Source of the DNA: an uncultured Bacteroidales bacterium
GTDB taxonomy: Bacteria > Bacteroidota > Bacteroidia > Bacteroidales > UBA932
Reading direction: 5' to 3'
Length of the DNA: 36,761 nt
Assembly (NCBI GenBank): GCA_947305815.1
Contig: CAMZEI010000003.1
Location: 1 to 36,761 of the forward strand
The stretch's first letter is position 1; each line of letters starts with the position of its first letter. Shown here piece after piece: positions 12,990 to 30,387 of the stretch. The notes under the pieces were generated by a model that saw nothing but the letters and a program-made list of their open reading frames with translations, ran no database searches and was not told where the DNA came from. The translations under genes were made by a program, and so were the position numbers.

Positions 12990-13964
12990 ATGCGCAGCAA
13001 AATGTCACTTGTCAGAATGTCCCCGGCGCTTGCACTCGCCGCTCTCCTCGCCGTGTCCTGCAACACGGGCGGCTACCGGACCTTCCAGGGCTATGCCCAG
13101 GGTGGTGTATATACCGTGAAGTACAATGCCAGAGGCGTGAATGTGAGCCCGCAGGAGGTGCGCGACAGCGTCGAAGCGCTGCTCACGGCTATTGACTTCT
13201 CGGTGTCGGGATACAACCGCAATTCGATCCTCAGCCGCCGCAATGCTGGGGAGGAGGTCGAGCCGGACAGATACTACAGTGAGCTGCGGGAGATTTCCGA
13301 GCACTACCGCGAGATTACCGGAGGAGCATTCGACGCCGCGGCCGGACCGCTGTTTGATATCTGGGGCTTCGGATTCACCCGCGACACCTTGCCCGATCAG
13401 GCGGCAGTGGATGCGGCGCTCTCTCTTTGTCACGAGGGCAAAAGGCTCAATTTCAACGCTATAGCTCAGGGCTACACCTGCGATGTGGTGGCTGCGTACC
13501 TGCATTCGCTCGGTGTCAGAGACATGCTCGTAGATATAGGTGAAATCTATTGTGAGGGCCTCAATCCGTCCGGCGAAGGCTGGAAGATAGGGATAGACAA
13601 TCCGGTGGACGGCAACAACAGTCCCGGAGCCGATCTGCGCGGTGTCTGGCAGTCTGATGGCGGAGCGCACGGGGTCGTGACTTCGGGGAACTACCGCAAA
13701 TTCTATGTGCGTGACGGCCGCAAATACTCCCACACTATCGACCCGCGCAACGGTTATCCGGTCTCGCACAGCCTGTTGAGCGCCACGATTGTGGCTCCGA
13801 CGGCGACCGAAGCCGATGCGCTCGCTACCTATTGCATGGTTATTGGACCCGAGGCGGCGCGTGACTTCGTCCTCTCACGGCCTGACATCGAGGCCTGCCT
13901 CATCAGTGCTGACACCCTCTGGACCTCCCCTGGTTTTAAGATTCCGGCTCTTCGGCCGGAATGA
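12990..13964 (+). CDS. apbE: FAD:protein FMN transferase (ApbE family), lipoprotein
   Basis: Lipobox LAALLAVSC, GGVYTVKYNA, FDAAAGPLFDIWGFG, NFNAIAQGYTCDVVAAYLHSLGVRDMLVDIGEIYCEG, KYSHTIDPRNGYP. ATG at 12990 preferred over 12969, which lies upstream of the -7 box. Confidence 0.92.
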   Translation: MRSKMSLVRMSPALALAALLAVSCNTGGYRTFQGYAQGGVYTVKYNARGVNVSPQEVRDSVEALLTAIDFSVSGYNRNSILSRRNAGEEVEPDRYYSELREISEHYREITGGAFDAAAGPLFDIWGFGFTRDTLPDQAAVDAALSLCHEGKRLNFNAIAQGYTCDVVAAYLHSLGVRDMLVDIGEIYCEGLNPSGEGWKIGIDNPVDGNNSPGADLRGVWQSDGGAHGVVTSGNYRKFYVRDGRKYSHTIDPRNGYPVSHSLLSATIVAPTATEADALATYCMVIGPEAARDFVLSRPDIEACLISADTLWTSPGFKIPALRPE

Positions 13965-14084
13965 CTACGCGAAAGCGTTGTGGAGCCAGGATGCTGCCTT
14001 CTGGACCGGGTGTCTTTTTACCCGGGACAGGAGGCACATTCTGGCGCGTAGGAATAAGTCATTCCGGACGAAGAGCCGGGATCT
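13939..14084. repeat. Composite inverted-repeat element (copy 1): outer arms around a nested hairpin core at 13969-14052
   Basis: Left arm AGATTCCGGCTCTTCGGCCGGAATGACT vs reverse complement of right arm AGATCCCGGCTCTTCGTCCGGAATGACT (2 mismatches in 28). Core hairpin CCAGGATGCTGCCT...CCGGGTGTCTTTTTACCCGG...AGGCACATTCTGG. Confidence 0.85.
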
Positions 14085-15168
14085 ACAATGAAGAGATAGC
14101 CTTCAGGCAGACCAGGAGCAGGTCGGCGAGACGGTCGCAGAGGGCCGGGAGGAACGCCGGACACAGGCCGACGCAGCTCAGCGCCAGCATCGCGAGGGCG
14201 CAGATCATAAGGATCTCCGTGAGCGGTAGCGCCACGAGATTTGTCACCAGGAAATACCGTGGAAATATCTTGAATCGCACCCATACCAGAGGCGCAGTGA
14301 ACAGCTGGCATGAGATGGACAGTGAGAGCATTTCCCAGAGTTTGCGCAGTGGGTCAAACCGCAGTCCCGCCGGGTACAGGCTCCGCAGCCGCGGGAATAC
14401 CAGCGCCGTACCCGTCATCGCAAGATAAGACAGCTGGAACCCGGTATCCCTTATCAGCTGCGGATCTGCAATCAGCTGCAGCATAGCGGCCAGGCAGAGG
14501 GTCCCGAGGGGGCTTCGGCGGCGCCCTGGCAGCAGCGAGTGCAGCTCGGCAGCGATGATGTAAATCAGAGCCCTCACCGTCGAAGGCCTCCATCCTGTGA
14601 TGAAAGTATAAGCGCCGCAGAGCGCTACAGCAAGTGCAGCCCGCACCCATCGGGCAAAAGGGTTGTTGCCTGCTGCCGCGAGCACCGTCCTTACAACCAG
14701 GTAGATAATCCCGAGATGCAGTCCCGAAAGGGCCAGGATATGCGCCGCTCCGCTCTGTCGGAAGACGGCCGTCGTCTCCCGCGGCAACAGGCTGCGGTCC
14801 CCGGTGAGCAGGGCCCGCAGCAGTGCGTTCGTCTGACCCGATACCCCCGTCGCGGAGATCCTGTCCTGCAGGGCCCCGAGTGCCCCGTCTGCAGCCTCGG
14901 AGAGCCAGCCCATGCCAAACGCCGGCCATGCTCCCCGCGTGGCGACTGCTCCCGCGTAGCCCATCACTCCGAGGCACAGGAAGGCCGCCGGCAGCAGCAC
15001 GTCCGGGGTGTACTGCCACGAGGGATGCCTTGCCGCAATCCAGACCAGCGGGAGCAGCGCAACTGAGCATACAATTCCAGCCGCAGGTGCTCCTCCGAGC
15101 GCCCAGGCCGCAATGACTCCTGCCGCATAGCTGACGGATATCGCTTCGAATCTTCCGGCTCCTTCCAT
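14083..15168 (-). CDS. ComEC/Rec2-type competence membrane channel protein, short form
   Basis: FRQSGAAHILALSGLHLGIIYLVV, YTFITGWRPSTVRALIYIIAAELHSLL; polytopic; 361 aa with no recognisable C-terminal metallo-beta-lactamase domain. Confidence 0.82.
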   Translation of the reverse strand: MEGAGRFEAISVSYAAGVIAAWALGGAPAAGIVCSVALLPLVWIAARHPSWQYTPDVLLPAAFLCLGVMGYAGAVATRGAWPAFGMGWLSEAADGALGALQDRISATGVSGQTNALLRALLTGDRSLLPRETTAVFRQSGAAHILALSGLHLGIIYLVVRTVLAAAGNNPFARWVRAALAVALCGAYTFITGWRPSTVRALIYIIAAELHSLLPGRRRSPLGTLCLAAMLQLIADPQLIRDTGFQLSYLAMTGTALVFPRLRSLYPAGLRFDPLRKLWEMLSLSISCQLFTAPLVWVRFKIFPRYFLVTNLVALPLTEILMICALAMLALSCVGLCPAFLPALCDRLADLLLVCLKAISSL

Positions 15169-25433: not shown

Positions 25434-26531
25434 ATGGCAGCAGACAGCAATACATTACTTGAGAAAGTTCTCTCGCTTCAGGACAAGTTCCAGTCCCTCC
25501 AGGACCAGCTTGCAAGTCCCGAAGTGATGTCGGACATGAAGAAGTTCGTCCAGCTCAACAAGGACTACAAGGAGCTCGAACCCATCATACGCAAGGGTCT
25601 CGAGTACAAGAAGATGGTCACCGACCTCTCTTCCGCCAAGGATATCCTCGCCACCGAGAAGGACGAGGAGCTCCGCGAGATGGCCCGCATGGAGATCTCC
25701 GAGATAGAGCCCAAAATCCCCGAGATTGAGCAGGAGATCAAGCTCCTTCTCATCCCCGCCGATCCCGACGACAGCAAGAACGCTATGGTCGAGATTCGCG
25801 GCGGCACAGGCGGCGACGAGGCTGCCATTTTCGCGGGAGACCTCTTCCGCATGTACCAGCATTTCGCCGAGTCACGCGGCTGGAAGCTCGAGGTTACCGA
25901 CCAGGCCCCCGGCACTTCCGGCGGCTTCAAGCAGATAGTCTTCAAGCTCTCCTCCAATACCGACGGAGTCTATGGCATAATGAAATACGAGTCCGGCGTG
26001 CACCGCGTCCAGAGGGTCCCTCAGACCGAGACCCAGGGCCGTATCCAGACTTCAGCGGCTTCGGTGGCAGTGTTCCCTGAGGCCGGTGAGTTTGATGTGG
26101 ACCTTAACTGGGACGACATCAGGCTGGACCTTTTCTGCTCATCCGGTCCCGGCGGCCAGGGCGTCAACACGACCTATTCGGCTGTGCGCCTCACGCACAT
26201 CCCTTCGGGTCTCGTGGTGCAGTGTCAGGAGGAGCGCTCCCAGCTCAAGAACAAGGACCGCGCCTTCGAAGAGCTCCGTACCCGTCTCTATAACCTTGAG
26301 CATCAGAAGTATCTGGACGGCATAGCGGCCAAGCGCAAGACGATGGTATCGACCGGTGACCGCAGCGCCAAGATCCGCACCTACAACTATCCCCAGGGTC
26401 GTGTCACCGACCACCGCATCGGCTGGAGCATGTACAACCTGCCCGTCTTCATGGACGGAGATATCCAGGAGTGTATCGACCAGCTGCAGATCGCCGAGAA
26501 CGCCGAACGCCTCAAAGAGGCCGGGGATTAG
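25434..26531 (+). CDS. prfA: Peptide chain release factor 1
   Basis: Start [19 protein letters not shown] at 25434; [75 protein letters not shown] (GGQ). Confidence 0.96.
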
Positions 26532-26565
26532 CCCAGCCCAACTCCACAACGCCCTCGCGCGTCTA

Positions 26566-28290: not shown

Positions 28291-29166
28291 ATGGCACGCA
28301 GAATCCCCGAATCCGAACTCATAATCAACTCAGACGGCTCCGTTTTCCACCTTCATATCCGTCCCGACCAGCTTGGCGACGTCGTTTTCCTCGTAGGTGA
28401 CCAGGGCCGCGTCTCATATTTCCTGCCCTTCTTCGACTCGGTCGAATGTGAAGGCTCGTCCCGTGAGTTCCACTGGGCTACAGGAATGTTCGGGGGCAAG
28501 AGGGTTACCGCCCTCTCCACCGGCATAGGCACCGACAATATCGACATCGTGATGACAGAGCTGGACGCCTGCGCCAATGTGGATTTCGCTACCCGCGAAG
28601 TCAAGCCGGAACACAAGACTCTCAAGATTCTGAGAATCGGTACCTGCGGCGCGATTCAGCCCGAAGTCCCCATCGGATCATACATCCTGTCGCACATCTC
28701 CATCGGCTGCGACGGTCTGCTCAACTGGTATGAGAATCGCGACAGCATTGCCCTGCTGGATTTCGAGGAGGCCTTCAAGAAGCATGTAGGCTGGGACCGT
28801 CACCTGCCCGACCCGTATTTCGTGCGCGCAAGCCAGGAGATTATCGACCGCTTTGCTGATTGCACCGTGATGGGTATGACCATCTCAGCAAGCGGCTTCT
28901 ACGGCCCTCAGGGGCGCGTTGTACGTCAGGGTCTCGCGATGCCCAATATGCTCGAGGACTTCGAGAGCTTCGAGTTTAAAGGTTATAAGATCACTAACTT
29001 CGAAATGGAAGGCTCGGCGCTCGCCGGCATGGCCGCAAAGCTCGGCCACGAAGCCGCCACGCTCTGCCTCGCGATAGCTCACCGCTATCATCGCGACGCC
29101 AATACCGACTACCACTCACGCATGCGCGAGCTGGTCAGCCTCGCCCTGAAGCGGATGACTGATTAG
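28291..29166 (+). CDS. Nucleoside phosphorylase (uridine phosphorylase-like)
   Basis: VFLVGDQGRVSYFLPFFD; VTALSTGIGTDNIDIVMTEL; LKILRIGTCGAIQPEVPIGSYILSH; NFEMEGSALAGMAAKLGHEA. Confidence 0.9.
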   Translation: MARRIPESELIINSDGSVFHLHIRPDQLGDVVFLVGDQGRVSYFLPFFDSVECEGSSREFHWATGMFGGKRVTALSTGIGTDNIDIVMTELDACANVDFATREVKPEHKTLKILRIGTCGAIQPEVPIGSYILSHISIGCDGLLNWYENRDSIALLDFEEAFKKHVGWDRHLPDPYFVRASQEIIDRFADCTVMGMTISASGFYGPQGRVVRQGLAMPNMLEDFESFEFKGYKITNFEMEGSALAGMAAKLGHEAATLCLAIAHRYHRDANTDYHSRMRELVSLALKRMTD

Positions 29167-29201
29167 TGTTTTCTGCAACTACCTGATTTACTGATAATTC
29201 C

Positions 29202-29237
29202 AAAAATGGCATAGGGAATTTGCCCTATGCCATTTTT
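29202..29237. terminator. Bidirectional intrinsic terminator-like hairpin
   Basis: AAAAATGGCATAGGG-AATTTG-CCCTATGCCATTTTT; the perfect arms extend to 19 bp (29198-29216 / 29223-29241). A-tract, GC stem, T-tract geometry on both strands, between convergent genes. Confidence 0.75.
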
Positions 29238-29321
29238 GGAAATTATTGATTACCACTAATATACGTAAAACGGTCAATGTATACTTGGCGGCGGACAACG
29301 GAGCGGAATCTGGTTTTCCGT

Positions 29322-29406
29322 GCGAGGGCGTTGTGGAGCCAGGGTGGTGCCTTCCGGGCCGGGTGTCTTTTTACCCGGAACGGGAGGCACCACCCTGGCG
29401 CGTTGG
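29322..29406. repeat. Hairpin repeat element (copy 2), homologous to 13969-14052
   Basis: GCGAGGGCGTTGTGGAGCCAGGGTGGTGCCTTCCGGGCCGGGTGTCTTTTTACCCGGAACGGGAGGCACCACCCTGGCGCGTTGG; perfect 14-bp stem CCAGGGTGGTGCCT/AGGCACCACCCTGG; 73 of 85 aligned columns identical to copy 1. Confidence 0.85.
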
Positions 29407-29415
29407 GCGAGGTTA

Positions 29416-30387
29416 TCAGTCGTACAGGTTACGGTAGCTGATGTTGGACCACTCTTCGGCTACGACGGCAGGGTCGGAGACGGTCTCGTCGATGGCCTCG
29501 TGCTCACCCATCATCACGCTGTGGATGAGGAAGTTCTCCTCGTCATCGATGCGCTGTATCTGAGCGGCCGCGACCTCATGGGAGTTGCCGTCGAAGCGGT
29601 ACATGCGGTAGCTGTAACCGCCGTCGGCAAGCACCTTGGCTATATTGCTGCTGCCGGAGAAGTTAAGCTTGAAGAAACGCTTCCCGGTGTAGGGGACGGT
29701 GACGTCCGCAGTGCCGTGAAGCAGCATTGTAGGGCAGGGGTCGGAAGCGAAACACAGCGCTCCCTGATCGGAGAAGATAGCCCCGGCAAATGACATCACT
29801 CCGGCGTAGTTGAAACCTTCGGGCAGCACGGTGGCATGAGGCCCGCCATTGCAGATTTCCCACTCTGCCTGCATTGAGGTCATGGCACCGGCGGAGCCGC
29901 CGCTGACCACCAGAGCCGCAGGGTCAATCCCGAGCTCCGCTGCATTGTCGACGAGGAAGCAGGTCGCGCTGAAGAGGTCCTCCACGGCGGTATCGACCGC
30001 CGCTCTCAGGGCCTTTATGAACTTAAGCCCTATATGCTTGAACTTCTTGTCCTTGAGGGCAAGGCGATAGTCTATCGCGACTATTCTGAAGCCGCGGTCG
30101 GTCATGGCCTTGAACCACTCCACGTTGCGGGGATTGTCGCGTGTACCTATGGCGAAGCCGCCGCCAAACAGGAAGATTACAGTCGGCTTGGCCATGCCGT
30201 CCACGCTCGTCTCGCTCCCCTCGGCGGGCTCATAGATGTCGAGGTAGAGCTCCTGCCCGTCCTTGACATCATAGAGATAGGTGCCGCTGGGCTCGATTGC
30301 CAGAGGGATTTCCTGAGGCTGCCGGACCTCAGAGAGTTGGGCAGAGGTAAGGGTCATTGCGAGTGCTAAGAGGAGAATACTTGTCAT
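29416..30387 (-). CDS. Secreted alpha/beta-hydrolase (carboxylesterase-like)
   Basis: N-terminal signal [43 protein letters not shown] oxyanion motif; VVSGGSAGAMTSMQAEW nucleophile elbow (GGSAG). Confidence 0.85.
   Translation of the reverse strand: MTSILLLALAMTLTSAQLSEVRQPQEIPLAIEPSGTYLYDVKDGQELYLDIYEPAEGSETSVDGMAKPTVIFLFGGGFAIGTRDNPRNVEWFKAMTDRGFRIVAIDYRLALKDKKFKHIGLKFIKALRAAVDTAVEDLFSATCFLVDNAAELGIDPAALVVSGGSAGAMTSMQAEWEICNGGPHATVLPEGFNYAGVMSFAGAIFSDQGALCFASDPCPTMLLHGTADVTVPYTGKRFFKLNFSGSSNIAKVLADGGYSYRMYRFDGNSHEVAAAQIQRIDDEENFLIHSVMMGEHEAIDETVSDPAVVAEEWSNISYRNLYD

Follow-up and report, generated by a model that had tools for sequence, protein, structure and literature searches.

An undescribed dispersed palindromic DNA element with a fixed core and exchangeable hairpins in an uncultured Bacteroidales genus

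Introduction

Palindromic repeats that invade genes in frame are best known in Rickettsia and Wolbachia. The Rickettsia palindromic elements (RPEs) of Ogata et al. (2000) are about 105–150 bp long and palindromic, and are found in intergenic regions as well as in frame in conserved genes; when an RPE insert was tested in guanylate kinase, it was tolerated (reviewed in PMC2229807, PMC10969869). The CGTC-tagged REPs, with stems of 8–9 bp, include RPE-4 and RPE-6 (PMC3733652). No literature on gene-embedded palindromes in Bacteroidetes was found in the open literature, as far as its incomplete coverage reached. Here, we describe a previously undescribed dispersed palindromic DNA element from an uncultured Bacteroidales genus, starting from a window of 36,761 nucleotides, the whole stretch of DNA that was analysed.

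Results

Copies of the element in the window

An earlier note on this DNA had placed two hairpin copies approximately 15 kb apart, at 13969–14052 and 29322–29406, and both were present as placed. Its hand alignment, with 73 of 85 columns identical, agrees with the blastn alignment of 13969–14052 to 29318–29410 (86% identity over 85 bp, E 8.7e-22). The 85-bp unit was found, but the conserved unit is slightly longer (about 13963–14056 and 29316–29410), as matched by R1, a covariance model built on the subtypes of the window's own genome. Both copies lie in tail-to-tail gaps, as had been reported, one between ApbE and ComEC-like genes and the other between phosphorylase and alpha/beta-hydrolase genes. 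The element had been counted twice in the window, and both of these copies are real, but there is also a degenerate third copy on the minus strand. Its 5' core is intact at 26542–26558 and its hairpin is degraded, and it lies in a convergent gap whose flanking genes encode a release factor and a ketoacyl synthase. The two palindromes that frame copy 1 are, by their tag and head-to-head arrangement, CGTC-type REPs (PMC3733652). The features of the window are as follows.

13017..13964, + strand: ApbE-family gene, left neighbour of copy 1 (Pfam E 2.6e-63)
13940..13965, - strand: CGTC-type REP palindrome by sequence, left arm around copy 1 (outer stem P1; joint fold -97 kcal/mol)
13963..14056, + strand: copy 1, subtype A (R1 covariance-model match, 100.2 bits, E 4.2e-21)
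13969..13985, + strand: copy 1 5' core GCGAAAGCGTTGTGGAG, made up of the GNRR mini-hairpin and unpaired GTTGTGGA (conserved in copies of the own genome and of congeners)
13986..14044, + strand: copy 1 variable hairpin P3, with outer stem, purine internal loop, inner stem and T-rich loop (fold, covariation)
14045..14052, + strand: copy 1 3' motif CGCGTAGG, conserved (sequence; alignment A1)
14058..14083, + strand: CGTC-type REP palindrome by sequence, right arm around copy 1 (outer stem P1; joint fold -97 kcal/mol)
14083..15168, - strand: ComEC/Competence-family gene, right neighbour of copy 1 (Pfam E 1.1e-44)
26491..26564, - strand: copy 3, degenerate (R1 E 0.058; exact core match)
28291..29166, + strand: phosphorylase superfamily gene, left neighbour of copy 2 (Pfam E 2.6e-23)
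29316..29410, + strand: copy 2, subtype A (R1 match, 101.7 bits, E 1.8e-21)
29322..29338, + strand: copy 2 5' core GCGAGGGCGTTGTGGAG, conserved (sequence)
29339..29398, + strand: copy 2 variable hairpin P3 (fold z = -7.5)
29399..29406, + strand: copy 2 3' motif CGCGTTGG, conserved (sequence; alignment A1)
29416..30387, - strand: alpha/beta-hydrolase (BD-FAE) gene, right neighbour of copy 2 (Pfam E 1.2e-15)

A second dispersed palindrome, TTCCAAAAATGGCATAGGGAATTTGCCCTATGCCATTTTTGGAA, was observed at 29195–29245 of the window and at no fewer than three other loci of the genome (at least L062, L067 and L019). Its apical AGGGAATTTGCCCT is retained while the outer stem changes pairwise.

A fixed core carries exchangeable hairpins

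The conserved parts of the element are 5' GCG-NRR-GCGTTGTGGAG and 3' CGCGNNGG, and unrelated hairpins stand between them. The core is made up of a GC-GNRR-GC mini-hairpin, unpaired GTTGTGGA and the closing CGCGNNGG, and GTGG was invariant in alignment A1, one base ahead of the stem. The unit measures approximately 85–100 bp, with a stem of about 24 pairs. The hairpins of the own genome belong to subtypes A (both window copies), B (TCGGAATGAGCCGCCTGGGACGAGC...) and C (of the GTAAAATATTTCAGCGAGGC... type) or are short collapsed forms; the "solo cores" of the blastn search, which matched by the 5' core alone, mostly bear a full hairpin of other sequence when read. The long hairpin varies freely in sequence yet remains paired, within a fixed core. 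The hairpin that had earlier been taken as the core of the element is real, but the flanking core is the fixed part and the hairpin is the exchangeable one.

Copies 1 and 2 folded at -50.4 and -63.3 kcal/mol (z = -6.8 and -7.5), respectively, and no shuffle was equally stable. Copy 1 and the two inverted ATTCCGG palindromes that frame it gave a single fold of -97 kcal/mol. The stem is broken by a purine-rich internal loop, in which G.A and A.G interchange by eye in alignment A1. The 14-bp arms ascribed to copy 2 were not upheld: its outer arms are approximately 19 bp, and a 2x2 purine-rich internal loop precedes the inner stem.

Nested stems with pairing-preserving changes had also been proposed, and covariation was strong. 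In the 18-copy alignment, 95.6% of stem cells were paired and 18 pairs had changed on both sides, compared to 9.6 expected from shuffling (0/500), and this signal was lost when the partner column was slid by one to three. In a second alignment, of another congener hairpin type, 96.6% were paired, with nine double-changed pairs compared to 3.7 (0/500). Such paired changes can arise through selection on structure or through template switching between hairpin arms in replication. The + strand folded better than the minus strand owing to its G.U pairs, so that it is probably this strand that folds, whether as RNA or as single-stranded DNA. Outer, locus-specific inverted repeats were longer than permuted flank pairs both in the own genome (7.06 vs 5.70, 2/300) and in congeners (6.4 vs 5.05, 0/300). 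With these repeats, which lie beyond the core and often frame the element, the predicted fold of the whole can take the form of a three-way junction in which the centre is fixed and the arms vary.

Copy number and distribution

The window's own assembly comprises 1.38 Mb in 102 contigs and is 88.6% complete. Blastn gave 13 near-full matches in it plus matches to the 5' core alone, and a covariance model built on 18 copies found about 26 places, the further model rows being reverse-strand echoes of the same palindromes. The dispersed, REP/MITE-like character suggested earlier was supported, at about 26 copies in 1.38 Mb.

Model R1, built on the own subtypes, found no match in 60 relatives. A short core pattern recurred in other species of the genus, for example 10 times in genome G303, seven times in G224 and four times in G132, over a low reversed-pattern background, and the congener loci at these matches held true elements with new hairpins. 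With models of two further hairpin types, the number of matches at E<=0.01 reached 38 in G224, a few of them reverse-strand echoes; other element-bearing species mostly gave several to 20 matches with further hairpin models, again with some echoes. Up to about 35 copies were present per congener genome. The core was found in about 20 of 300 sampled congeners, an estimate that combines pattern hits verified by reading with model hits, and none of 392 further genomes taken from across the order, nearly all of them belonging to other genera, contained the 17-nt core. To judge solely by how species-rich it is, the genus is probably Cryptobacteroides. Hairpin types were amplified in a genome-specific manner (A and B in the own genome, one type in G303, others in G224), and at L112 (G303:C16:17507-17687) two copies stand in direct tandem, about 15 bp apart.

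A 17-nt loop pattern searched against the genome contig collection gave only chance hits in unrelated taxa, and a search of the phage collection gave nothing significant. There was no Rfam match above the gathering score in the window and congener loci, and a permissive Rfam search at the element gave chance-level hits only. An integron attC site, considered for a GTTRRRY-like 3' end, was dropped, the 5' side lacking a complementary RYYYAAC.

Intergenic context

Gene context across genomes was assigned from individual loci, with a simple gene caller based on codon usage. Ten of the 15 classifiable intergenic copies in the own genome were in convergent gaps, four in co-directional gaps and one in a divergent gap, a convergent excess with a binomial p of 8e-4 on the assumption that one gap in four is convergent. 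Of the 44 intergenic copies in congeners, 11 were in convergent gaps. The preference for such gaps noted earlier therefore holds for the own genome but not for the congeners, and it was rejected as a general rule. The co-directional copies of the own genome were sense to the upstream gene in 4/4 cases; those of congeners were in the same orientation in 15 and the opposite in 10, and no clear orientation bias emerged. Intergenic copies were richer in stop-free frames than shuffles (4.65 vs 3.73 and 3.94 vs 3.21).

A strong hairpin, placed between convergent genes in those 10 of 15 own intergenic copies, could in principle act as a bidirectional transcription terminator. However, the T run lies in the loop and the stem has no 3' U-tract, which confirms the view of the earlier note that this is not a standard terminator; the convergent preference is missing in congeners, copies occur inside genes, and a separate palindrome is already present in the gap of copy 2, at 29195–29245. 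We regard a terminator function as very improbable.

Copies in frame inside conserved genes

Both copies first noticed in the window are in gaps, but about one-sixth of all copies fall within protein-coding genes, which the description of the element as intergenic had missed. About 20 of 114 copies were intragenic, 14 antisense and six sense, a tally that includes a few probable false calls from spurious reverse frames. In the own genome, copies were in frame in dsbD (L065), atpG (L067) and trmB (L070), as well as within a small ORF (L060) that also holds in-frame REPs. In congeners, they were in frame in ugd, pyrK, rmlB, rmlD (two), dapF, metH, hemW, atpG (two) and a glycosyltransferase gene. 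Most of the invaded host genes were identified by NCBIfam or Pfam; metH and the glycosyltransferase were named by sequence features rather than by profile search. In ugd and rmlB, the insert divides the NCBIfam match into two stretches; in pyrK and hemW, the best stretch starts just past the insert. Two recurrent predicted peptides, ..PAPQRPR.. and ..SAPPSTTPTH.., correspond to two frames of the antisense core, and the insert sites are loops of varying length among homologues. Read from the open frames, these findings show that the element occupies intergenic sites and also, in frame, length-variable loops of conserved genes.

Exact empty sites or target duplications were not definable through atpG, dsbD and glycosyltransferase orthologues, because the inserts lie in hypervariable loops and the best homologues of the own genes are only 56–67% identical, so that boundaries could not be read.

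CGTC-type REPs were likewise observed in frame in L067 (atpG), L070 (trmB) and L060, with predicted peptides such as SAGMTKDSHSGQAERDPE. In atpG of G174 (L176), a shrunken element remnant, PAGAPSTTPTHN, occupies the same loop in which G308 and the own genome have full copies, an apparent case of decay or of a hot spot.

One glycosyltransferase loop in seven species

The glycosyltransferase loop was occupied in G249, G104, G308, G143, G174, G121 and G224, and empty in G132, G015, G089, G008 and G082. An 11-nt core, CTCCACAACGC, was identical in 7/7 occupied species, the neighbouring native codons varying at third positions, and the P1 and P3 arms changed pairwise. The five-codon window that includes the variable loop codon scored 0.73, and 29 of 100 native windows scored as high; this window is thus not exceptional, and the selective constraint on the core at this site is only suggestive. 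The occupied species did not form one clade in the gene tree, most forks of which are weak. A single insertion event was therefore rejected, and repeated gain or loss is needed.

The invariance of the core together with paired changes at one orthologous site looks more constrained than would be expected of a dead insert. This could be explained by selection for a function, either as a structured RNA or as a cis-acting element of the 3' end or of DNA architecture, if the three-way junction served, for example, as a transcript end or as an RNase or protein-binding site. The better folding of the + strand with its G.U pairs, the GNRR mini-hairpin and the fixed junction with variable arms are consistent with such a role, as are the covarying P1 and P3 arms around an unchanged core in the seven orthologues, the convergent preference in the own genome and the sense orientation of its 4/4 co-directional copies. 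However, the element is patchy within one genus, amplified genome by genome and without an Rfam match; it occurs in genes in both orientations (14 antisense, six sense) and between co-directional genes of congeners as 15 same and 10 opposite; and template switching between hairpin arms can yield paired changes without selection. We consider this explanation distinctly improbable. A narrower proposal is that the module of fixed core and exchangeable, covarying arms was kept by selection after insertion, to which the 11-nt core unchanged at one in-gene site in seven species would point. This we hold to be unlikely, if a little less so. If true, the selected module would have a function at the level of the host or of the element, as RNA or folded DNA, while also being translated.

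Candidate mobilising enzymes

One RAYT/Y1-transposase-like ORF with the HUH motif MPNHIHIL was found in the own genome (L046, G000:C13:13964, 1290-2292, + strand), and it has its own tandem palindromes on both sides (GCGTTGCTACACAAAAGAGGCC... and GCTACACGAAAAC...). Among 31 RAYT loci scanned, none had the element on both sides, and those that were read carry other palindromes or none. Genomes G221, G203 and G143 contained core matches but no PF01797 match in their incomplete drafts. RAYT (PF01797) was accordingly rejected as the mobiliser, RAYT genes being present but flanked by palindromes of their own.

The element could nevertheless be a true GTAG/GTRG-type REP moved by RAYT, with the GTGG 5' of the hairpin as its tag, an explanation that overlaps with that of a mobile repeat and names the enzyme. 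It draws on the GTGG at the hairpin foot, on the GTAG-20 elements of O. terrae, most of which have GTAG mutated to GTGG (PMC3733652), on the presence in the genus of RAYT-like ORFs bearing HUH motifs, and on the convergent and unidirectional gaps that REPs favour (PMC3733652). Yet REPs are 20–40 bp with stems mostly of 6–9 bp, compared to approximately 85 bp, a stem of about 24 pairs and conserved cores on both sides here; the RAYT loci examined were not flanked by the element, except in one possible chance case (189 bp, G224), and three genomes with core matches had no PF01797 match. We judge this assignment to be rather improbable.

In G224 (L152/L333, contig C22), a copy of the element was observed 189 bp from a short RAYT-like ORF, with another copy 4 kb away on the same 18-kb contig; this proximity is compatible with chance. 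RAYT-like genes were abundant in the genus, with one to six per genome in most, and several had a private palindrome pair, one at each end (L147–L171 and neighbours). They make up a rich and apparently unstudied collection of REP/RAYT systems.

Discussion

The element is likely to be a non-autonomous mobile palindromic repeat with a lifestyle like that of RPEs and REPs. This reading follows from its copy number, genome-specific amplification, covariation, in-frame copies, the site that is occupied in some species and empty in others, the outer inverted repeats and the stop-free frames. The REP/MITE-like character suggested in the earlier note was largely right, given a dispersed repeat of approximately 26 copies with covariation and no Rfam match, but the invasion of genes had been overlooked. 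In the mechanism we propose, an enzyme supplied in trans would recognise the core at the foot of the hairpin. It would most probably do so on single-stranded DNA, as an enzyme of the HUH/tyrosine-transposase kind, although we put this step forward only tentatively. Copies would be inserted into or beside palindromes such as CGTC-REPs, and those that land between genes, or in frame where a protein loop tolerates them, would survive.

In this large, uncultured Bacteroidales genus, a distinct family is present in dozens of copies, which suggests that in-frame invasion of genes by palindromes recurs independently and reaches core metabolism. A fixed core with an exchangeable hairpin offers a clear handle on the moving enzyme, a question that also stands for CGTC-REPs and RPEs. 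With hundreds of congeneric genomes, gain, loss and constraint can be traced at single sites such as the glycosyltransferase loop.

Like MITEs, the element is small, non-autonomous and amplified within the genome; MITEs have terminal inverted repeats shared with an IS and a target-site duplication. The outer inverted repeats found around the element are locus-specific. CGTC-tagged REPs share the genome with the element, which in many cases stands between a head-to-head pair of them, but the CGTC/TGTC tag is confined to these framing palindromes and the element itself does not carry it. With the GTAG-tagged REPs and REPINs that accompany RAYT (PMC3733652), it shares a dispersed hairpin with GTGG at its foot, a division into subfamilies with alternative complementary stems and known intragenic cases; in contrast, it is several times longer and conserved on both sides of the hairpin, and RAYT association was not found.

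With RPEs the element shares a small palindrome with a long stem-loop, slightly shorter at approximately 85–100 bp, a location between genes and fused in frame in conserved protein genes, no known transposase, and a recurring encoded peptide, which in the element is predicted from open frames as ..PAPQRPR.. or ..SAPPSTTPTH... It belongs to a different phylum and is likened to RPEs by lifestyle, not by sequence, and the fixed core with exchangeable hairpins and the GNRR mini-hairpin are absent from the RPE descriptions in PMC2229807 and PMC10969869. By analogy, then, the element would work like an RPE, and it is assigned to no named RPE or REP family. Compared by lifestyle, its nearest kind is the RPE, and compared by anatomy, with GTGG at the foot of the hairpin, it is the GTAG-type REP.
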